DNA from: Ceratorhiza oryzae-sativae
Taxonomy: Eukaryota; Basidiomycota; Agaricomycetes; Cantharellales; Ceratobasidiaceae
Length of the DNA stretch: 64,000 nucleotides
Reading direction: 5' to 3'
NCBI GenBank assembly: GCA_030998015.1
Contig: JARWMV010000056.1
Span: forward strand, 35,333 to 99,332
Below the pieces are notes generated by a model. The model ran no database searches. It was not told the origin of the DNA and saw only the letters and a program-made list of their open reading frames with translations. This document shows, piece by piece, positions 1 to 12,433 of this stretch (its first letter is position 1; every line of letters starts with the position of its first letter). The position numbers and the translations under genes were made by a program.

Positions 1-73
1 AGAAGATATCTCAAATCCAGAGAGGGATGAGGTAGAAGATATGACCTGAACCATATATGAACAAGGCACGGCC

Positions 74-622
74 TTGGCGGAAGAGGCAAGGACACAACCC
101 CAGCCAGGTCCTGGAACCATAGCCACTGCCAACCCTATTCACACCATTGCCACTGCCATCAGGGTGGGGCTCAAGGAACTTAGAGACAATAACCATAGGG
201 AACTAGAAAAGGCAATCACAGGTATAAATCAGTGTCAAATATCACTAACCCGACAAGATGGAAATGTCAACTGGATGGTAAGGTCAATGGAAACATCCAA
301 CAAAAATGTCCTCTATGTGGCAAAGAACCAGGACGACCTAAAAGCAGAAATGGGGAACCTGATAAAAGAATTAAAGGACATCTCCATGGAAATAAACTGG
401 GTACTGGGAATGCAAGAGCGAAAGCTTGAAAGCTTAGACAAGAAAACTGAAAACACAGGGGAGATCCTAATTGCACTAGAACAACAGGTAACCAATCTAG
501 GAAATGAGCTCTGGAAAACAACTGAAGAAGGAAGGCCAAGGGAAAGGACAGAAGAGACCAGGGGAAGAACTAGGGTGGTCATAGGAACCCCCTCACAATC
601 CCCCTCAGCCTCCCCAGTATGA
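74..622 (+). pseudogene. gag-like N-terminal coiled-coil segment of the Ty3 element
   Basis: Open frame of 182 codons rich in Glu, Lys, Asn and Leu, with a helical, heptad-like middle (residues ~35-145) and a basic Pro/Ser-rich end. It is in a different frame from the gag segment that follows (from about 725), so a frameshift lies between them. Its position just before a recognisable gag suggests it is the start of the same polyprotein. The real start may lie left of the window. No enzymatic domain is visible. Confidence 0.55.
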
Positions 623-724
623 ACACCCTTTCTGGGAAGAACCTTCCAGGCTGAGTCCACAATAAGACCCAAACAGAACCTCCATCCCAAGCAAACCAAC
701 CTACCCTTGCTGCAAACCACACTC

Positions 725-1581
725 CTAAGGAGGTGCAACTAGGGAGACCCAGCAAATTTAATGGGAAAAAGGGGAAGGAAGCAGAGAACTTCATAGTCAG
801 CATGGAACTTTTCTTTGCTGACTATGACGAATCAGCCTTTGATGACTGAAAAAAGATATCTGCTGTGTTAATGAACATGGAGGATGGGGAAGCAGCAAAC
901 TGGGCACAACCTTACCACTGGAAACTAATAGCAGGCGAACACACAGGTATTCTTGCATCCTGGAAGGATTTCAGGAAGGGATTCCTGGATGCTTTTAATG
1001 ACCCAGTCATAAAGGAAAAGACCATCCAGAAACTAAGGAAATTAACACAGACCAAGAGTGCATTGGATTATGCTACCCAATTCTGGATCCTGATCCAAGA
1101 GGTAGACTGGAACCAGGAAGCCCTCAAGGACCAATTCAGGGAAGGGTTAAAACCCGAAGTACGACAAGAGATCTTAAGGATTGAAGTACTGGCAAATGAG
1201 GCTGAAGGTCCATCATATACCTTAGATCAATTAATTGACTTTGCCTGCAAAATGGACAACATGCAGTTTGCAAACCAGAAAATGAATGCAAGGACCAGCA
1301 ACTCATCAAATTCAACCTGGGCACCAGCGAAATACAAACAAGGGGGGAACAAGCCTTTAGGGACCAGCGGCAAACAGGGGAATACCCAAACCAACAACAT
1401 GGTAAGGATACCAAACAGTGAAAAGGACAGGCGAAGGAAAGAAGGACTCTGTATCAAATGTGGTAAATCAGGGCATGTCCTGAAGGAGTGCCAAGGCCAG
1501 TGGACCTACGACAAAGCTAAGATACAAGGGAAGGCCAGCAGACAAGTTGAGGAAGAGAGCAGCTCTGAGTTGGAAAACTAA
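725..1581 (+). pseudogene. Ty3 gag (capsid and nucleocapsid) with zinc knuckle
   Basis: Structural protein that packages the element's RNA. Coding similarity begins near 725 and runs through an in-frame TGA at 847-849 into the open frame that starts at 865. The helical retrotransposon-gag region covers about 900-1260 and is followed by a polar linker. A CCHC zinc knuckle lies at about 1450-1490 (CIKCGKSGHVLKEC; C-x2-C-x4-H-x4-C). The TGA could come from CGA by CpG decay. The protease follows after a short gap. Confidence 0.85.
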
Positions 1582-1632
1582 TTGGTCCTACCACTTCCAT
1601 GTTGGAGGACCCCAATATAACCCCTACTGCAG

Positions 1633-2175
1633 ATGTATGTTACCTCAAGAAGTCTAGTAATCAATCAATACACTGTGGTAGAGGGAATAATGGAACCAGC
1701 AAAGACGCTGATTGACTCGGGATCTTCAACCAACTTCATCAATAAGGCCTATTCAAGGGAAAAGGGGATTCCAACCACTCCCCTCAAACACAAGAAATCA
1801 ATTGTGGCCATTGATGGAAATGAAATCAAGGATGCCATAGATGAAAGGGCAGAACTAAACATCGAAGTGGAAGGGAAGACACTAAAATGCTCCCTTTATG
1901 TAATGACCCTAGGTGACACAGACATAGTCCTAGGGAAAGAATGGCTTGAAGAAGCAGAACCTATCATAGATTGGAAAGACCTTACCATCTCATACCCAGA
2001 TGAAATCAAGGCAAGGGCAGCAAGTGAAAGCCTACAAATCCCAGAAGAATTTAGGGATTTTGAAGACCTATTTGGGGAAGAAGGTTTCTGAGAACTTCCA
2101 CCCCACCGAGGTAACCTAGACTTCAAAATGGACCTGATCGAGGGAGCAGAGCTGCCAAAGCCTGCAAAGAGGTAC
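1633..2175 (+). pseudogene. Ty3 aspartic protease
   Basis: Retropepsin-type protease that would cut the polyprotein. The active-site signature LIDSGSSTNFI is at about 1711-1743, and a hydrophobic flap-like segment (TDIVLGKEWL) follows. The open frame ends at an in-frame TGA (2089-2091). Related sequence continues past it (ELPPHRG, the usual link into RT) to about 2170, where the frame shifts into the RT frame. Confidence 0.85.
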
Positions 2176-4303
2176 AGTATGTGCCAGCAGAAACAAAGGG
2201 CTCAGGGAGTACCTAGAGGAGGAACTAAGAAACAGGAAAATAAGGCCCAGCCAGTCAGTTGTAGCTGCACCCTGTTTCTATGTGAACAAAGCAGATGGAG
2301 GGCTTAGGTTGGTAGTCGACTACCGTAAGATGAATGACATCACCAAGCCAGACAGGTTTCCACTTCCAATCCAAATAGAATTGATTGAGAGACTGAAGGA
2401 TGCAACCATCTATTCAAAAATGGATGTTCAATGGGGGTTCAACAACATCAGGGTAAAAGAGGGAGACAAATGGAAAACAGCTTTCAGGACAGGAGAAGGC
2501 CAGTTTGAATGCTTGGTCATGCCATTCGGAGTAAAAGATGGACCAAGAACCTTTACAAGGTTCATGATGGAAAAGTTCCGTGATATAATAGACGATTATG
2601 TGGTAATCTACATGGACGATGTACTAGTGTTTTCCAGAAACAGGGAAGAACACATACAACATGTCAGGGAAGTGTTAAGAAGAATGAGGGAAAACCACCT
2701 CTTCCTCAAACCACACAAGTGTCAGTTCTTTGTGAAGGAGGTAAGCTTCATTGGAATTGTCATATCCCCAGAAGGGATATCGATGGAAAAGGAAAAGGTA
2801 AAGGCAGTTCTAGAATGGCCAGAACCTAACACAGTAAAAGAAGTCCAAGCCTTCCTAGGCTTCGTGGGGTTCTATAGAAGGTGGATAGAGAAGTTTAGTA
2901 CCTTAGCCAAACCCCTCACAGATCTCACCCAAAAAGATGTCAAATTCCTGTGGGAAAGAAAACAACAGGAAGCATTTGAAGCTATCAAAGAAGCAGTAGC
3001 AAGAGAACCAGTCCTGATCCACCCAAACCCAAACAGGCCATACATACTGGAAACAGACACCTCAGGAGTGGCCATGGGGGCAGTACTAAGCCAAAAGGGT
3101 GATGACAACCGATTGCATCCAATTGCCTTCCTATCAAAGAGCTTCACCCCACCAGAGAAAAATTATGACACCTACGACAAGGAGTTGCTTGCAATTGTTA
3201 GGTCCTTAGAGCACTGGAGGTTATACTTAGAAGGGACAGAGGAACCTATTGTGATATACACTGACCATAGGAACCTCCAGTACTGGCAAAATGCCCAGAT
3301 GTGGAATAGAAGGCATGCCAGATGGTACCTCACTCTGGCACCCTTCAATTTTCAGATTGTGTATAGACCAGGGAAACTCTCACAGAAGCCAGATGCCCTT
3401 TCCAGAAGGAGCGACCATGGGGATACCCCTATGGAACCACAGATCATGATTCCAGAAGAAAGGTTCATAGGTTTCATGGCAGAAGTACAGGGGAATTTCT
3501 GGGAAGAGCTTAAAGAAGCTCAGGAAGAAGACAAATCTATCAGATCCTTAAGGCTGAGCATGGCAAATAAAGAACAACTACCGCCCTCAGTACAGAAGGA
3601 ATTTAGATGGTACGAAATGAAGGAGGGCCTATTAAGGTATGACGATAGGCTCTACATCCCAGATGACAAGGACTTGAGGCTGAGTCTCCTTGAGGAGTGC
3701 CATGACGCCCCAGTGGCAGGTCATCAGGGACAAGCCCGAACACTAGAATTACTATCAAGGGATTACTATTGGCCAGGAATGAAGGCCCAAGTAAACCGAT
3801 ATGTGGAATCTTGTGAAACATGTCAAAGAAGCAAAGGACACAAACAAGGCACTCCCCTGAAGTCCTTACCAATCCCATGGAAACCATGGGCAGATGTCGC
3901 ATATGATTTCATCGTCAAATTACCCATCTCAAAGGGGTACGACAGTATCTTGACAGTTGTAGGTTGCTTCTCCTGGCAGGCCCATTGTGTACCATGTCTG
4001 GAGAGCACCAATGCAGAAGAACTGGCAGAAATATTCATAAGGGAGGTATGGAGACATCACGGGACCCCAGAAACCACTGTCTCAGACCGAGGGCCAACCT
4101 TTAACAGCCAATTCCTAAGAGCCCTATACAAAGGAATTGGGACAAAGCCCAGATTCTCCACTGCCTTCCATCCAGAAACAGATGGTCTGTCGGAAAGGAC
4201 AAATCAATGGGTAGAAGGGTTCTTAAGAACCTTCTGCAATTATAGACAAGATGATTGGGTAAAATGGTTACCCATTGCCAATTCTGCCATAACAACCATG
4301 TAA
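2176..4303 (+). pseudogene. Ty3 reverse transcriptase, RNase H and integrase core
   Basis: Long open frame (673 codons from the first ATG at 2282; homology starts about 100 bases earlier). RT holds the catalytic YMDDVLVF box at about 2610-2634. The Ty3-type RNase H begins with LETDTSGVAMGAVLSQ near 3050. The integrase HHCC zinc domain (H...H...C-x2-C) lies at about 3700-3835. The D,D-35-E core has first Asp in VAYDFI, second in TVSDRG and Glu in DGLSERTNQ. The frame breaks near 4295, apparently by loss of one base. Domain order defines Ty3/gypsy. Confidence 0.92.
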
Positions 4304-5002
4304 ATGCTACAACAGGACAAACCCCATTTGAAACAGTATATGGAAAAAACCCAAGATGGGTTGTCCAAGAGGGAGAAGAACCATCTGAGGCACCCGCTGC
4401 AGACAACATGCTAATCAAATGGAAAAGGTATGGGATGAGGCAAGAGCCTCAATGGAATTACACCAACAAATGGAAAAGAAAGGGAGGGAATTCAAGGTAG
4501 GAGACAAGGTTTGGCTGCTCCTAACAAACCTCTTGTCCAAGAGACCCTCCAAGAAACTGGACAACCGAAAAGGGGGGCCTTTTGAAATCACAGAAAAGAT
4601 CTCATCCCATGCATATGCCTGGACCTACCTAAAACCATACGTGTACACAATGTATTCCATGTAAATCTCCTCTTGCCATTCACAGAAGATAAAGACTTCC
4701 AAAGAAGGCAGGCCAAACCACCACCAATCATAACGGAAAAAGGAGAGGAGGAATAGAGGTGGACCACATTGCAAATTATGAATGGCAGAATGGGAGCTGT
4801 TTTACCAAATCAGATGGAAGGGGGCTACGACCCAATAGAAGACACAATGGAACGTGCCAGCAAGTTTGCTGACATGAAAGAGGTTCTAAATGACTTGCAA
4901 AGGCACTTACCAGATGCACCAATGCCAGTCAAGACAAGTCAGCACTCAGGTGACTCGAAAGGCAGGCCAAAGAGAACCAAACGAGGATCTGGAAAGCTTT
5001 AA
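4255..5002 (+). pseudogene. Integrase C-terminus and chromodomain of the Ty3 element
   Basis: Continuation of integrase in shifted frames: the TGQTPFETVYGKNP segment, then the GPY/F-like stretch FKVGDKVWLL...KGGPFEI (about 4492-4590) and a VFHVNLL stretch. After about 4755 comes a degraded chromodomain: a VDHIANYEW start, then GYDPIEDTMERASKFADMK and a DLQRHLPDAPMP tail. Chromodomains target integration to particular chromatin. At least three frame changes make this non-functional. The tail ORF (4769-5002) looks like the end of pol. Confidence 0.75.
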
Positions 5003-5049
5003 AAAGAGCCATCCAGGATACCCAAGAAAGGCCAGAGCCTGCTCTACCA

Positions 5050-5780
5050 CCTCACTTGCACCACAAACACCTGCAAAACCCCAAAACATGCCTTTCACAC
5101 TCACCCAGTGCACATCCCAACCGTTACACCACTTGCTGAAAATCAGGTGGCCCCACTTTGGCAGCCACCCACCACCAGGCAGCCAGCACCCTACCCTGGC
5201 AGGGAAAATTGTCCTAAACCAGGGATGTACTGCTCCAGTGTGGAAGACGCCCAGAGGTACGCGAAGACTGTTGCCAGGGGCTAACCTAGTGTACATCCCA
5301 AAGAAGTTAAGGGATGAAAGGAACTGGATTGACAATGACAAGTACCTGGATCCCAGGTTAGGGGTCCTGACATGGCATGGAAGCCGGAAGCCACAACGAG
5401 AAACGCCTTGTTAAGAACACCGATGTATGTCATTGACAATATGTGGGACCAACAGTCGACATGGTGACCAAGGCAGCAAGACAACAGAGGAGGGCCACAG
5501 GCCAAATGGCAGAGAGGGGGGACTGGGAGGTGGAGCGCCAGGCAAAGGCATTGCTGGAAGAATGGAAGTTGACACCCATGCATATGTGGGACTGCTCGAA
5601 GCAACTACCACTGATGAGATGTTTACTGCTATCAGGACAAAGCAGGCAAACATGAGCAACTTCCGAAATTGGGTGAAGGTGCACCCAAACAAAAACACCA
5701 ATTACAACACTGATATGACAAGCCTTACATCAAGCCTAGAATCACTGGTGTGGCTGAGGAAGAAGCCAAGCCAGAAATAA
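5050..5780 (+). pseudogene. Unrecognised degraded ORF in the extra segment of the Ty3 element
   Basis: Coding-like sequence scattered over frames: about 5270-5400 (GANLVYIPKKLRDERNW...), 5461-5560 (charged, Arg/Glu-rich) and 5590-5780 (helical, Asn/Thr-rich). The codon style matches the rest of the element. I cannot assign a family. It begins just after the chromodomain, where most chromoviruses have only a short spacer before the LTR, so it may be an extra ORF of this lineage or captured DNA. Confidence 0.35.
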
Positions 5781-7220
5781 AGGAACCCACCCTGGACCCA
5801 GCTGGAGGAAGCCAAACAGGACTGGGACCGGTGGGAAAAAGCTTGTCAAAGCTCTGGAGGAGGTGCCACTGTTGGAACCAACCCCCATATGACCACTTTG
5901 CCTCCCACAAATTGTCTCCCGAATGTATAAGAGTTTTTTTTTTTTACACACCAAACTTAATACATTTTTTTACTCTCTATTTTTACGTTTGCCCTTGAGG
6001 GGCCGGGTATAGGGCTTCTTGCCCCTTTTATCCTTCTTATTGGTCTGAACTGACTGGGTAGTGGGCTGCAGCCAAGGAGCCTCCCCCCCTGGGAAGTGGC
6101 CATGTAGTTCTGGAAACACCCAGAACCAGACGCTGCAAAGGGCGAAGCCTCATCAAACAAGGGAGCAGAGCCCTCCTCGAAGAATTCGGCAAGAGGGCCT
6201 GGTGAGACTGCTCCTCAAAGGACTTGTAGTCCTGATCAACGAGCGCCCAGACACACTCAAGGGTGGCCTCATGGGCCGACCATCAAGGAGGATGTGCTCT
6301 TCTACAGAACAAGTTAGCTACGTGAGAACAACAAAGAACAACACATACCTGGCACCCCACAGAAGAACCAGTCCCCAACACCTCCATAGAAGTCTTCAAG
6401 GGAGGCGTTGCACACAGCATCACAGTAGGCACAGTACTCCCCCTCAGGGAGAGACCAGCAGGTGCAGTCAAGGGGATTGTAGTTAAGGGAAAAAACGCAT
6501 AGTAAAGGGATGAGGAAGGAAAACAACAAAACCACAAACATTAAAAAATCACAGTGCAACACAATAACTTGCACAAACATCAAAACAAGGTCTGGTCAGG
6601 TGACACCACAGACACATGACCATCTGCCAGAAAACAAACAACAAAGCATGGGAATCACATGACCTAGCCTAGTCACGTGAATATATGCTATCCCCTAACT
6701 ACTGGAGGGGTTGGAGAGGGGGCACCAACCGAAGTGGAGGAGCAGAGGCCCCAAGTGTAGTGAGGAAAAAGGCTGATGCGGGGGAATGCAGGAAGGGCAC
6801 CCCTCGGAGATGCGTCATAACCAGCACAAGCCTACATCAGGAAACCACATGACCACAACAACCAGAAAGGGTATATCTAGGGGATGCCTTTGGGGGTAAA
6901 AGGGGCTATCATTTCATGCCCTCCCCACAAGATGCATCTACCTCAAAAAGCACCAACAATGCTAAGCAAAGATGGCTCAAATGTGGGAACACCCCAGCCA
7001 AACAAATCAAGCACAGGGCAGAGGTCGCCATCGCCATTGCTGGTGCCCTGAGAATCAAGCTGAGCCCCCTCACCTGCTTCTACACAGCTGACACTGATGG
7101 ATCACGGGTCCAAAGAGCTGACTGAAACTGCATGGGCCCCCTGATTCTGTGTCCAGACCAGGGCAGTGCTGCTGACCTGGTTGAAGCTACGTGATCAGCC
7201 CTCAAGTGGGCTTGCTGCCT
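5781..7220. other. Non-coding or decayed stretch inside the Ty3 element
   Basis: No convincing gene. Short poly-T runs occur near 5935-5975. A 69-codon frame at 6916-7125 has no recognisable motif. The stretch precedes the Rep-like gene and may contain its lost 5' end and promoter, but no Rep motif I could be identified. Confidence 0.4.
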
Positions 7221-7222
7221 GA

Positions 7223-8205
7223 TATGAGGCATTCTGCCGCCACCAGCCCAATCACTGGGCAACCTTAGCCATGGTCAAACGGCACAACCTGGAGGAGCCA
7301 AACTACAACCCAACCTGGCCCCTGCACGTCCATGCCCTCTCCATCAGTCAGGAACAGAAGGGCAGGTGGAACACCCAGAACGCAGGGTTCTGGGACTTCA
7401 AGGGGCAACACCCCAACATACAGCCCAAAGACCTCAAGGACCAGCCAGGAGGCAACCCAGCAAGGGATGCCTTCAACTATCTCTGGAAGGATGTTGGAGC
7501 TAATGGCAAGGAGATAGAGGATTTGATGGCAGGAGACCTGACCTTGGAAAGGTTGGAGGAGATCTTGGTGAAGGGAAAGGGTGGAAAACAGTCAAGGATG
7601 GAGGCAGACTTGGAGGACAGGACGGATATTGTCACCTCAGCAACAAAACAGGAGTACTACCAGGTGTTCAAGCACCTCCACCCCCTCCAGATGGTGACGA
7701 TGTGGAACTTGGTATAAGCATATGCCAAGTACACATACAAGGAAGACCAGGGTTGCATGCCTGCAATCCCTGTGGAGTTAGAGCTCCCGGAAGACCAGGA
7801 GCACATTGACCGAGCAGACAGATGGTTTGCTGAGGAGGTCAAGAAGAGGGGAAGAGGGGTGCGCCATCGCATCCTGGTGATAGAAGGAGAAACTGGAACA
7901 GGGAAAACAGCATATGCACAATCCAAGGGCTGCCACAGCCAGATGTGCAATGTGTGGAATGTGGGCAACTTGTCAGAAGATGCTGACATTTGGATCCTGG
8001 ACAACATGGTCCAGTCAAACAGGAAGTACTTGCTCAAGGCCCTAGGCCAGTACAAGGTGGACTTCACAGGCAGGTAAGTGCATGTGAAATTGATGAAGGT
8101 ACAGCCAACAGTTATTCTGGGAAATAGCCAGTTGGCAATCATGAAGTGTTGGTTGGACATAGAGGGGGAAGAAGGGGACTTATGGGTATCAAGAAATGTA
8201 GAATG
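7223..8205 (+). pseudogene. Geminivirus-like Rep (rolling-circle initiator plus SF3 helicase), broken
   Basis: One continuous frame interrupted only by two TAA codons (7715-7717 and 8075-8077). The N-terminal half has a nuclease motif II-like LHVHAL (~7320), a geminivirus-style FWDFKGQHPNIQP segment (~7391) and a motif III-like YLWKD (~7478). The C-terminal half has WFAEEV, a Walker A loop GETGTGKT (~7888), a Walker B-like ADIWILDN (~7984) and a motif C-like QPTVILGN beyond the second stop. This order matches Rep of CRESS-DNA viruses (geminivirus and genomovirus type), which nick and unwind circular ssDNA. Motif I is not found. It lies between Ty3 pol and the 3' LTR in the same orientation and is clearly dead as read here. 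Confidence 0.78.
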
Positions 8206-8363
8206 AGTGTACGCAGGAGGAAAACCATTCTTTGTATTCCCTTAGAATAATTTACTGTATTGTACAACTTCTGCTATGCCCATCCAAACAGTTGGGGCAT
8301 TCTGAGAAGAAGCAGACGAATCCTCACCCCTACATAACCTCCACAACAAAGAAAAGAAAAAAC

Positions 8364-8490
8364 AATCTCATGTAATGAAGAGGTTAAGGGGTCTAGCCTG
8401 ACTCAGCCTGACCTCATCGAACAATACTGAATCAGCCAAAAGGTCATTGGTTCAAGTCCAGCACCCTTAACCTCCTTGGTGCATGAGATT
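8364..8490 (+). other. tRNA-like fold inside nested inverted repeats
   Basis: An 11 bp stem, GAGGTTAAGGG (8380-8390) with CCCTTAACCTC (8464-8474), resembles an acceptor stem. A B-box-like GGTTCAAGTCC (about 8449-8459) sits where a T-arm would be. Outside it, AATCTCATG (8364-8372) pairs with CATGAGATT (8482-8490). The A box is poor and no anticodon arm is clear, so it is not called a tRNA gene. It may be a tRNA-derived fragment. It lies about 60 bases upstream of the polypurine tract. Confidence 0.4.
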
Positions 8491-8541
8491 CCTTTTGCAT
8501 AAGGATCTAAACCATGTCTCAAGGTCCCCCAAGACATGTCC

Positions 8542-8552
8542 GAAGGGGGGGA
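8542..8552 (+). promoter_or_regulatory. Polypurine tract of the Ty3 element
   Basis: GAAGGGGGGGA lies three bases before the LTR start. It is the expected primer for plus-strand DNA synthesis. Confidence 0.8.
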
Positions 8553-8555
8553 TAA

Positions 8556-9224
8556 TGTTATGACCTGTCAAACAGACATAACAGAATAACCAAATATTTT
8601 TACAGATTTATGGCATTTTTCCTAAGCAGAACAAGCCATAAACAAGGTCATGTGACCTTGGCACTTAACTGGCACTTATGGTGGTTACCCTGAACTTGCT
8701 CCAGCATTTCTCTCCATTGTCACTTGGAGTGAGGAGTGAGTTGTCATGTGATCTTGGCACTTACAGCAGCATCACATGACCTCTGCGCTTACAGTGGTTA
8801 CCCTGAACTTGCTCTGGCATTTCTCTCCATTGTTACTTGGAGTGAGGAGTGAGTTGTCATGTGATCTTGGCGCTTACAGCAGGATCATGTGACCTCAGCA
8901 CCTACCCCTTGGACCTCACACAGCTCTATAAGATTCGGACCTGCACAAACTTAAGACAAACAATTACCTAACCCATAGTACTGTACATAACCTGCACCTA
9001 CTGCAGATTGTGCTTAGATAATACATCTGCAGCCACTGCAGCCACAGGTATATATAAGAAGGATAAAGCAAGACTGGACACCTCAGCTTGCTTTGTCTTG
9101 TCAACCACCATAGACCATAGCAAACACTGTAACTAGAACACTCAATACATACCACATAGCACCAAACCATCAACACAGCCACTACTTAAGTGCTTCGCAA
9201 GGAAGCATCCAGAGGGTCACGACA
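8556..9224 (+). repeat. 3' LTR of the Ty3/gypsy element
   Basis: Starts TGTTATGACC and ends GGTCACGACA; the two ends are imperfect inverted copies (8 of 10), as LTR ends should be. It is preceded by a polypurine tract. It contains two tandem copies of a 113 bp unit (8681-8793 and 8794-about 8905) with repeated ATGTGA/TCACATGA-like motifs, and a TATATAAG promoter-like site near 9050. Length is 669 bp. Confidence 0.85.
8681..8905 (+). repeat. Tandem 113 bp duplication in the Ty3 LTR U3
   Basis: Two copies beginning GTGGTTACCCTGAACTTGCT at 8681 and 8794 with only scattered substitutions, each ending in a TCATGTGATCTTGGC block. Such U3 repeats often act as enhancer-like elements; that role is inference. 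Confidence 0.8.
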
Positions 9225-9430
9225 CTCATAACCTGATGAATGTATGCACAGTTAATGTGCTGTAGATAGAATAGATAATATGGATGCCATTCTAACACAG
9301 AGAGAAACATAGTATATATACAGCCAATAGGCGCTGTTCACTCATTGCATGTAATACAATAAAAGCAATGTATGTATGCATTGCATCGTACAATACACAG
9401 TTGTGAAATGTGTTTTGCACATTTCATTAC
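9225..9430 (+). repeat. LTR-like fragment between Ty3 and copia coding sequence
   Basis: About 200 bp with no coding signal. It has TATATATACAG near 9313 and AATAAAA near 9358, the promoter and polyadenylation arrangement of an LTR. Copia integrase sequence resumes immediately after. Probably a further solo LTR (or part of one) inserted in the copia integrase; exact ends could not be set. Confidence 0.35.
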
Positions 9431-9884
9431 TCATTGTCATATTGTATGCACAAACAACACTTTCTATGGCAGGAAGCTGTGTCTTACACCAGTATGATTG
9501 CCAATAACATGCCTCACAAGATCCATGGTGAATGGTGTATTCCCCTAGTTGAAATGTTCAACAAACCAATCGACATGTCCTATTTTCAAATTTTTGGCAC
9601 TACTTGCCAGGTTCTTATACAATTGAAACCCCATTCAAAAATTGAGGCCAAAACACGTTGTGCCATCTTTACCAGCATTGATAGAAACTCTGGAGGCACT
9701 TGGTGCTACCTTGCTTGGCCCAATCAAGTGATTTGCACATCTCAAAACATTTATTTTCCCTGCCACCTCCCTGATCAAACATATTTTGATGCTCCAACCC
9801 CTAAAGCCATTTCTGGCAAACCAGATAGTCTCTCCAAAGACAAATGGGTTCATGTATTCACACCAAGTGAGGGGGAGATGGGAA
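9430..9884 (+). pseudogene. Copia integrase C-terminal part
   Basis: Frame carrying the end of the integrase core (FLWQEAVSYTSMIANNMPHK) and the copia-specific segment after it (FQIFGTTCQVLIQLKPHSK..., then a CAIF...-to-YFPCHLPDQTYFD strand region). It is interrupted by the solo LTR at 9885. The frame resumes after 10027 as a Ser/Pro-rich linker leading to RT. Confidence 0.75.
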
Positions 9885-10022
9885 TGTTGGATGTCACATG
9901 TGGCTGCACATTGGGTCATGTGATTCATATCAGTGTATTTAGGCATTGTAGTAGAAAATTTTACAAGAGAGAGAGATTTCACCTAACCACCATGTAGCCT
10001 GCCCGCTACCTCAAGTTTAACA
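9885..10022 (+). repeat. Short solo LTR (138 bp) with GGGAA target duplication
   Basis: Starts TGTTGG and ends TTTAACA, flanked on both sides by GGGAA (9880-9884 and 10023-10027). A close relative lies at 63749-63879; the two share the ATTTCACCTAACCAC block. The insertion is inside copia pol and keeps the frame readable once removed. LTRs this short are typical of TRIM-like elements. Confidence 0.82.
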
Positions 10023-10302
10023 GGGAACTGGTCCCAACACTCTGAAACACAGGCATACATCCACTCAGCACAAAGACCTGTCCACTCAGGCTCAGGGGGA
10101 GTCTTCTATGCTGTTGCAACCTGCTGCTATGCCTTTAACACCTAGTCCATTGGTAAACACTAGCCCTAGTCATCCTGAACATTCCCATTGACCTGCTCCT
10201 GGTCCTTCTGCACCATCCAAGTCATCTGATCAACTAGTCCCTGGTGACAATTGTTGCATTACTTGTACTCAGGCTTGCACTGGTGCTAAACCAATCAAAC
10301 AC

Positions 10303-11030
10303 ATGTGCCTCAATGAAAAGTCCAAACTTGAACGCATACTATGGCTCCAAGCACTCAATGACTTGCACAATCAAACTAGCTTGTTTATACACAACCCTGA
10401 TGAAGTCTATCTAGTCGACTTGTTGTCCTTTGGCAATTCTCCCTATTGCTTGCAGCTACCTAGTCACATACAGGCCTGCTTTCTTGCTCTCAACACTAGC
10501 TGCAATGACGAACTACCTTGCTACAACACCTGGGCTGCAAAACACTTATCTTCACTCTCTCAGCCCAATCTAGTTGACTCTGACTTGCCTAAATGGTCTG
10601 ATGCCTTGAAGTCCAATTGCTGCAAGGACTGGCTTGCCACTGTTGACACTGAATTCAATCAATTGAAGAAGAACAACATCTATAGAGAAATCGATTGTCT
10701 CAACGTACCTTGTGGTGCCCAAATACTCACATCTGGCCCAGTACTGAAAATTAAGTGTGATGCTGACAGCGAAGAAGTTCAACTCAAAGCTTGTCTAGTC
10801 ATACACAGAAACCGACAGATTGCTGGTCTTACTTATAATGAAACTGTCTCAAACACTCCCGATCTTGTCTATATCTGCATTGTCTTCACTCTTGTTGCTC
10901 ATGCTGACTTGGACTGCCACATGGTCAACGTTACCAGCACATACACTCATGCGCCGATGGATATTCCACAATATGTCAAATTCCCAGAGGGATATGGGAA
11001 AGGTGGCCCAACTATTGTGCTCAGCAAAAA
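10303..11030 (+). pseudogene. Copia reverse transcriptase, first half
   Basis: Begins in the pre-RT linker. The copia RT start is recognisable as WSDALKSNCCKDWLATVDTEF (~10590), followed by a K/R-A-C-L-V segment and the HADLDCHMVNVTSTYTHAPM block, which aligns with the usual D-V-x-x-A-F/Y-L motif. Some conserved residues are changed (VNVTSTY for VDVKTAF), showing decay. It is cut at about 11030 by a MITE-like repeat. Confidence 0.75.
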
Positions 11031-11066
11031 CCTGTGGGGGTAATGGTGTGTAATTAGGCATAAGGA

Positions 11067-11198
11067 GGGGTAATGAAAACAGGGGTGTAGTAATGGTGTC
11101 ATTATGCCAAATTACACTGGTGTAATGGATAATGACAGATAATTATGTGTCATTTCATGGAATTACACCATTACTACACCCCCCTGTTTCATTACACC
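11067..11198. mobile_element. MITE-like repeat in copia RT
   Basis: Terminal inverted repeats of about 37 bp: GGGGTAATGAAAACAGGGGT... (11067-11103) against the reverse complement of 11161-11198 (GGTGTAATGAAACAGGGGGG...). The interior is A/T-rich with repeated TAATGGTGTAATT blocks and no ORF. It separates LSK (ends ~11030) from ALYSLHQAG (from ~11227) of copia RT. Exact insert ends and the target duplication are unclear. Confidence 0.65.
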
Positions 11199-11226
11199 TC
11201 AAGTTTTTCCTGAGTGTTCGTCACTC

Positions 11227-12120
11227 AAGCACTCTACAGCTTGCATCAAGCTGGCTATCTCTGGGAACTATTTCGCAACAGCAAAATCATTGCTATTGGC
11301 TATCGTCCATGTGCAAAGGATGTCTCTATCTTCACTCACACCAAGAACGGTGTTTTCTCCATCATTATCTGCTATGTCGACAACTTTGTTATCTGCTGTA
11401 CAGCTGGTCATATTGAATCTATCAAGCACAAGATCCTTAACCTATACGACTGTAAAGATCTAGGCAAAACTTGTTTATTCCTAGGCATCACTGTCACTCG
11501 CAATTGTGCCTGATGCACTCTGTCACTTACTATGGAATCGTACATCAAATCCACTGTCAAACTCACCAATCTTGACAAGGCTGCTCCTGCTGAAACACCT
11601 ATGTCAAATACTACGCCTATTCTTGAACCTTCGACTGACCAGATTCATTATCTGTATATTACTCAACTCAGCTGCTTGTTCTGGGTTACTTGCTGCATTC
11701 GTCCCAACATCTTGTTCCCTGTCGGTGTTTTAGCTTGCCATGCTGGTGCCTTCGGAAATGTGCACATCAACGTCATGAAGCGTGTTCATTGCTACCTCGC
11801 TACTACTGCTAAACTTGGCATCACTTATGACGGCTATAAACCTTTCTACGAAGTCGCTTACTTGGATTCTGACTATGCCCAACAGCACCTTCAAAAGTTG
11901 ATTTCTGTCTGCATTATTATTCTATCTGGTGCTGCTGTTGCTTGGCTATTGAAGTGTCAGTCCTCTGTCGCTCTTTCAACCATGGAGGCCGAAACGGTTG
12001 CTTGCTATCATACTGCGAAGGAGCTACTAGCTATACGACAATTTCTAGATGATATTGGTATTAAGTACTCGTCTCCCATCACTTCACCCATTCTATGCGA
12101 TAACCAAGCTGCTATTGACT
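11227..12120 (+). pseudogene. Copia RT second half and RNase H first part
   Basis: RT resumes as ALYSLHQAGYLW and contains the catalytic box as ICYVDNFVI (YVDD changed to YVDN). A TGA at 11512-11514 and a frame shift separate it from the 11532 frame. That frame carries the RT end (RPNILFPVGVLACHAG) and RNase H (AYLDSDYAQQ, LSTMEAETVACYHTAKELLAIRQFL, CDNQAAID). It is cut at 12120 by the Harbinger element. Confidence 0.8.
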
Positions 12121-12433
12121 GGATGACTTCCCGTAAGTGCTAAAGCTATTCTAAGCTAAGCTTTCCAGCACTAAAGATTGTCTATTGGCTGAATGACCAT
12201 GGTTTGGACCGGGACCACAAAACCAATCTGGCAGGTACTGTTGGCAAATTTTTGAGCAATTTCTCTTACATGTCATACGTGGCCTCACATCGTGATGACA
12301 CTTTCTGTTTGTATGTTCGGGACGTACCACATGTTTCAGCGACGAAAATGTATATAAATTGAGTAGAAAATACATGATGGTTTCGGCATACCCCCTCGAT
12401 TATACTGTACCACACTATTGCGTACTGCTTCAA

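Follow-up and report, generated by a model that had tools for sequence, protein, structure and literature searches.

A Rep-like gene behaves as a resident of a Ty3 chromovirus family in the fungus Ceratorhiza oryzae-sativae

Analysis of a 64,000-nucleotide stretch of the Ceratorhiza oryzae-sativae genome (G000:C56:35333-99332, hereafter the window; host assembly of 48.84 Mb in 253 contigs) revealed a Ty3 long terminal repeat (LTR) retrotransposon carrying a gene that resembles those for the replication-initiator proteins (Reps) of circular Rep-encoding single-stranded DNA (CRESS) viruses. Window positions 1-9224 hold most of this element, the 5' end of which lies just outside the window, and it is one decayed member of a Ty3 chromovirus family that is abundant in the genome. 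Across that family Rep behaves as a resident gene, the fourth after gag, pol with its chromodomain, and ORF3, an open reading frame (ORF) encoding an orphan protein. It is very probable that an ancestor of the family captured a Rep gene of the gemini/genomovirus type and kept it in this position, between ORF3 and the 3' LTR.

The residence of Rep is apparent from the copies found throughout the host assembly. Searching with the helicase part of Rep gave 151 matches; of the 150 listed rows, 31 lie in a frame that runs for 429 codons or more without a stop (hand count). Since genome searches score the best candidates only, these counts of copies, and those of associations below, are lower bounds. 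ORF3 has 126 matches and, with one row dropped as a second small fragment of one copy, 104 of 125 are followed, on their own strand and at no more than 5 kb (median 1966 bp), by Rep, while Rep is in the wrong order in one and on the opposite strand in two. Reverse transcriptase (RT) has 92 matches; once two that were further fragments had been dropped, 69 of the remaining 90 places have Rep within 8 kb and 75 are followed by it on the same strand within 13 kb, and nested insertions lengthen some of these distances. Finally, 115 of 150 Rep matches have the family RT or ORF3 upstream.

These copies bear on a sequence-only reading of the window, made before this analysis, which had proposed that the LTR element carries Rep as cargo and that a chance insertion would be indicated if all other copies lacked it. 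Other copies proved to hold Rep widely, in fixed order and orientation after ORF3, and divergent subfamilies carry it in the corresponding position; the term 'cargo' probably understates its standing in the element. Endogenous Reps are often broken by stops, and the window Rep, with seven of them, could by itself pass for a fossil inserted by chance into a single retrotransposon copy. The number of matches and the order, strand and spacing around ORF3 rule out such a fossil, and with Rep common to divergent subfamilies and under purifying selection (below) the probability left to this explanation is negligible.

Relatives at approximately 70% identity in RT-integrase (L029, L031 and L032; loci are numbered where they must be told apart) have ORF3 and Rep at the same place as the window family. 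Locus L033, a pol without Rep in 5 kb, was considered as a Rep-less member and set aside as uninformative, another Ty3 gag-pol lying there. When three subfamily A copies were compared with L029, L030, L032 and L034 over Rep residues 90-429 (A versus B), the proportions of nonsynonymous and synonymous differences were 0.15-0.18 (pN) and 0.66-0.78 (pS). The ratio of the corresponding rates (dN/dS) was 0.07-0.12 in the nine of 12 pairs for which it was computable (three L027 pairs were not), a value that is rough, dS being at or near saturation, yet far from neutral. Left out of this range were L035 (0.22-0.48, from a frameshifted alignment) and L031 (dS not computable). For pol, four of the five L032 pairs gave a dN/dS of 0.07-0.09, and comparison with L033 gave 0.18-0.20 (not computable with L029 and L031), and for ORF3 it was 0.17-0.24 between subfamilies where computable. 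Within subfamily A, Rep had a mean ratio of 0.24 and ORF3 one of 0.32, whereas gag and pol each had 0.47. Two within-B Rep pairs, of closely related copies, gave 0.80 and 0.86, near-neutral values that are expected from decay after insertion. The comparisons indicate that Rep is kept under purifying selection.

Stop codons number 34 in 10974 codons of Rep and 60 in 20395 of pol, the loci having been selected in part for the length of their Rep frames, a source of bias in the count; the like rates imply that Rep decays as does the remaining element once inserted. Any function of Rep for the element is deduced rather than observed, and a hitch-hiking passenger that serves itself or the host (for example against single-stranded DNA viruses), and not the retrotransposon, must be considered. 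We regard such a passenger as improbable, given that selection on Rep is about as strong as that on pol between subfamilies, is stronger than on pol within subfamily A, and is followed by the same decay after insertion. Rep and pol distances correlate over 22 loci (r 0.59, permutation 0.0025), a correlation driven by subfamily, and are uncorrelated within subfamily A (r -0.08). Among the pairs printed, L023, L024 and L027 differ from L010 and L017 by 3-9% in the 3' parts of pol and by approximately 12% in Rep, a mismatch that suggests recombination between copies.

Over its 429 codons the Rep frame of the window aligns collinearly, without a frameshift, to a genomic copy free of interruptions, to which it is 82% identical. 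Rep-type motifs lie where the sequence-only reading had placed them, in the same orientation as Ty3 pol; the extent given there, 7223..8205, holds motifs, but the full frame is longer (6956-8242) and hence includes motif I. Two TAA codons had been reported to break the frame, and broken it is, although by seven stops in all (two TAA and five TGA), two of the seven falling within 7223-8205. The HUH nuclease motifs I, II and III read LLTW, HVHAL and YLWK, with a block resembling the geminivirus Rep sequence (GRS), FWDFEGQHPNI, between motifs II and III, and the superfamily 3 (SF3) helicase motifs Walker A, Walker B and C read GETGTGKT, WILDD and ILGN. Over 25 copies, the nuclease residues H124 and H126 are present in all and Y175 in 24. 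Twelve hand-picked catalytic positions are 0.960 identical in these copies against a mean of 0.841, a level attained by 0.4% of random sets.

Curated profiles detect this protein faintly. Neither window fragment matches a Pfam Rep family: the first has no match at E<=10, and the second has nine sub-threshold matches, mostly to P-loop families (best E 0.023). Weak matches to Gemini_AL1_M were obtained for one of five genomic Rep frames and eight of 25 database homologues (best E 0.001), and to Gemini_AL1 for one of the 25, with the Pfam cut-off reached by neither family (best 19.5 bits against 24). Profile alignment by hhalign with phytoplasma gemini-like Reps gave P values of 1.1-1.6e-4 over 286-287 columns. 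The scores of the whole Rep (39.1), its nuclease half (29.0) and its helicase half (39.5) exceed the maxima of 60 column shuffles each (22.5, 16.7 and 16.4, respectively). The nuclease-half match is carried by the GRS block (17 columns), and the middle part of Rep gives no profile signal. Furthermore, the six top VIA-align rows for a low-confidence predicted fold of the protein are CRESS Rep nucleases, and of six BFVD matches at E<=0.001 both named ones are Reps.

Could the protein be some other P-loop ATPase with look-alike motifs? Such a reading would account for the lack of a significant curated profile match, the silent middle part and the equally weak matches to unrelated NTPase families. 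It appears very unlikely, as the nuclease half alone exceeds its shuffles, as does the profile without Walker A (34.1, against 22.5 for whole-profile shuffles), and CRESS Rep nucleases come first in VIA-align. The results fit a remote homologue within the group formed by gemini-, genomovirus and phytoplasma-plasmid Reps, to be assigned on its sequence to neither virus family. The earlier label 'geminivirus-like' holds at the level of this group; nothing ties the protein to Geminiviridae over Genomoviridae.

Other collections added little. IMG/VR held no relative of the Rep alignment, nor did the phytoplasma query find one in the viral comparators, and GRS-based pattern searches for such comparators returned nothing in one and 23 candidate stretches in the other. 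No relative was found among phage records, no Rep by PDB sequence searches, and no relevant match in NCBIfam or PHROGs; a plasmid search with the fungal Rep gave a single match, judged to be chance. An assignment to the Helitrons, which encode a two-tyrosine Rep with an SF1 (Pif1) helicase, was rejected, the protein having a single YxxK motif and SF3-type Walker motifs as read by eye. An annotated protein of Ceratobasidium sp. AG-Ba (P0021, 560 aa) consists of Rep sequence fused to an unrelated C-terminal sequence.

In L029, L030 and L032, Rep is interrupted at residue 87/88 by an intron-like GTAAGC...ATAG segment, after which it continues in frame (by eye). The same site holds a 24-residue insert in two metagenomic relatives, P0029 and P0051, which is presumably an unspliced intron. 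The segment is absent from the subfamily A copy L017, and the simplest reading would be that subfamily A lost an ancestral intron when spliced RNA was reverse-transcribed.

The palindrome TCACGTGA and its CpG-decayed forms were counted in 14 copies that include both Rep and the beginning of the 3' LTR. Thirteen of them have one to eight such palindromes in the 1.1 kb before Rep, the exception being L027, which has an insertion of other DNA there and no palindrome, and all 14 have one to nine within the first 670 LTR bases. The 5 kb before the spacer lacks them in 13 copies and has two in L027, and one lies inside Rep in six. For the two in the upstream spacer of the window, 0 of 500 shuffles reach that number, and the upstream count was never reached by shuffles in nine copies besides the window. 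L029 and L032 also have these palindromes in both spacer and LTR. A TATATA-type box precedes the Rep start by approximately 90 bases in four of five copies examined (not L027). These patterns suggest that a single factor acts on both the LTR and an internal promoter of Rep. This factor could be Rep itself or a host basic helix-loop-helix (bHLH) protein; the data fit both. We take TCACGTGA to be the textbook bHLH palindrome, an E-box of the Cbf1 type, and U3 enhancers that contain tandem repeats are found in many LTR elements. On these grounds the repeats are somewhat likely to be host bHLH sites that have no connection with Rep, although their concentration in two regions flanking Rep fits binding by Rep equally well.

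As to mechanism, Rep would be made from its own internal promoter and would have the DNA of the element as its target, extrachromosomal forms of which (cDNA or circles) it would nick and unwind; alternatively, it may bind the repeats common to LTR and Rep promoter. The kept nuclease and ATPase residues favour an enzymatic role, and the shared repeats mark where Rep could act. DNA processing is put forward as a tentative assignment, held at less than even odds. It is somewhat unlikely that Rep, though resident, is solely a DNA-binding regulator of the LTR and internal promoters through the TCACGTGA repeats: these do occur upstream of Rep and in the LTR, and in 13 of 14 copies the 5 kb preceding the spacer have none, but a mere binder would not need the nuclease tyrosine, HUH histidines and Walker residues that are kept, and palindromes inside Rep in six copies mean that they are not confined to the two regions. 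Roles beyond DNA processing and pure regulation take the rest of the probability.

A doubtful extension of the DNA-processing role is a hybrid replicon, in which Rep would nick the LTR/spacer repeats on circular cDNA and drive rolling-circle amplification before integration, besides reverse transcription. The canonical CRESS nonanucleotide origin was not found near Rep in the scanned copies. When both strands near Rep were scanned with the loose pattern TANTATTAY, ten of 14 copies had no match and the other four had TATTATTAT, which lies 1.0-1.3 kb before Rep on the opposite strand; no hairpin was seen at it in the three of those four copies that were checked for one. In L018, L023 and L024, the LTR is of a subtype with two to five units, each a TCACGTGA-type site plus a GC-rich hairpin with a loop of 8-9 bases, and among the copies printed this subtype accompanies one of two Rep subtypes. 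Such hairpins are not put forward as an origin, since they are tandem duplicates and therefore non-independent.

An antisense ORF of approximately 204 aa lies between ORF3 and Rep. It has no Pfam match and no match was reported for it in L029, L031 or L032; capture of a whole ambisense CRESS genome is not favoured. ORF3 (P0002) has no Pfam match either and no homologue at E<=0.01 in a large protein collection, and no capsid gene was recognised.

The features of the window element are collected in Table 1. Pfam recognises, in order, gag, protease, RT, RNase H and integrase. The CCHC knuckle of gag falls below the Pfam cut-off (zf-CCHC_5, E 0.0011), and the upstream ORF of the gag region (74-622) has no significant match. 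The window pol matches residues 18-963 of P0088 at 84%. The chromodomain that had been placed before Rep is borne out by other copies: PF00385 exceeds the cut-off of 25.1 bits in the better-preserved P0087 (E 8.7e-6, 26.0 bits) and lies just below it in P0088 (23.4 bits). Where decay is less advanced, a Tf2-1-like SH3 domain followed by the chromodomain makes up the end of pol.

Table 1. Features of the Ty3 element in the window (window coordinates)
Feature	Position	Strand	Basis or content
gag region	74..1581	+	ORF 865-1581: Retrotrans_gag PF03732, E 3.9e-12, and CCHC knuckle
Aspartyl protease	1633..2091	+	PF08284, E 7.9e-10
Ty3 pol: RT, RNase H, integrase, chromodomain region	2165..4999	+	Pfam; interrupted in the window copy
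ORF3, orphan protein	4954..5837	+	tblastn of P0089; approximately 318 aa in intact copies
Spacer and probable internal Rep promoter	5838..6955	+	two TCACGTGA-type palindromes, 6655-6662 and 6673-6680
Rep-like gene, 429 codons	6956..8242	+	motifs I, II (HUH), GRS, III (YxxK), Walker A, Walker B, motif C
Polypurine tract adjoining 3' LTR	8543..8552	+	sequence
3' LTR	8556..9224	+	five TCACGTGA-type palindromes (starts 8648, 8744, 8772, 8857, 8885); 113-bp tandem repeat
LTR stretch, Tf1-type self-priming candidate	9085..9094	+	matches 5' LTR stretch complementary to the primer-binding region

The 3' LTR stands where the sequence-only reading had it, at 8556-9224. Its 5' partner (G000:C56:34289-34958), just before the window, is 91% identical to it, and the element has paired LTRs with TG...CA ends as well as a polypurine tract. 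Twelve bases adjoining the 5' LTR show complementarity to a part of the LTR that lies approximately 35 bases after a TATA box, self-priming of such a kind being a feature of Tf1-type elements. The window copy has no target-site duplication, its flanks differ, and its 5' LTR abuts an antisense Rep copy (G000:C56:33481-34293; L009:482-1294) cut at residue 158/159, and it is thus judged to be rearranged; as the other half of that Rep copy was not found after the 3' LTR, the site is either nested or rearranged. The observed/expected CpG ratio is 0.20 in window 1-9224 against 0.90 for the remaining window, and 0.03 in L029, a depletion that would be expected from cytosine methylation and deamination. 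Directly 3' of the Ty3 element, at 9410-12143, open frames resemble by eye a decayed Ty1/copia polyprotein.

We presume that the element belongs with the Ty3/Gypsy chromoviruses of Tf1/sushi type. It shares with them gag, protease, RT, RNase H, integrase, the Tf2-1-like SH3 domain and chromodomain, and a self-priming candidate, and differs from them in that pol is followed by two additional genes, ORF3 and Rep. The Reps of phytoplasma plasmids (pAYWB-I, EcOYNIM_1998) have the same motif order (I, II, GRS, III, Walker A, B, C) at approximately 20% identity by profile alignment, but belong to bacterial plasmid replicons with no retroelement. Those of Genomoviridae and Geminiviridae have the same order of HUH nuclease and SF3 helicase, a GRS-like block, and a place as neighbours in BFVD and among solved structures; here, unlike in these viruses, the host is an LTR element, no capsid gene was recognised and no canonical nonanucleotide was found. 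The closest fungal parallel, as described by Liu et al. 2011 (PMC3198968), is Tuber melanosporum, with 42 gemini-like Reps, one of them inside a transposable element. That carrier is bounded by terminal inverted repeats of 37 bp and holds transposase ORFs together with a Rep that is interrupted, in contrast to the Ty3 LTR retrotransposon with open Rep frames seen here. Poxviruses, according to PMC10193959, likewise captured a CRESS Rep, an unrelated mobile genome again being the carrier, although a double-stranded DNA virus and not a retrotransposon. The terms helicase and Rep protein are absent from the available part of 'LTR Retrotransposons in Fungi' (PMC3248453). In the open-access literature, which leaves subscription papers mostly outside its scope, no title or abstract start among the matches listed describes a Rep resident in an LTR retrotransposon.

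LTR retrotransposons pick up extra genes. CRESS Reps are already known in DNA transposons (PMC3198968) and poxviruses (PMC10193959). A Rep kept under selection inside an LTR retrotransposon brings RNA-copying and rolling-circle strategies together in one element, and the more than 100 natural copies of the family make it possible to study what a retroelement may gain from a rolling-circle initiator. Furthermore, the element would offer a path by which a Rep gene may spread through fungal genomes.
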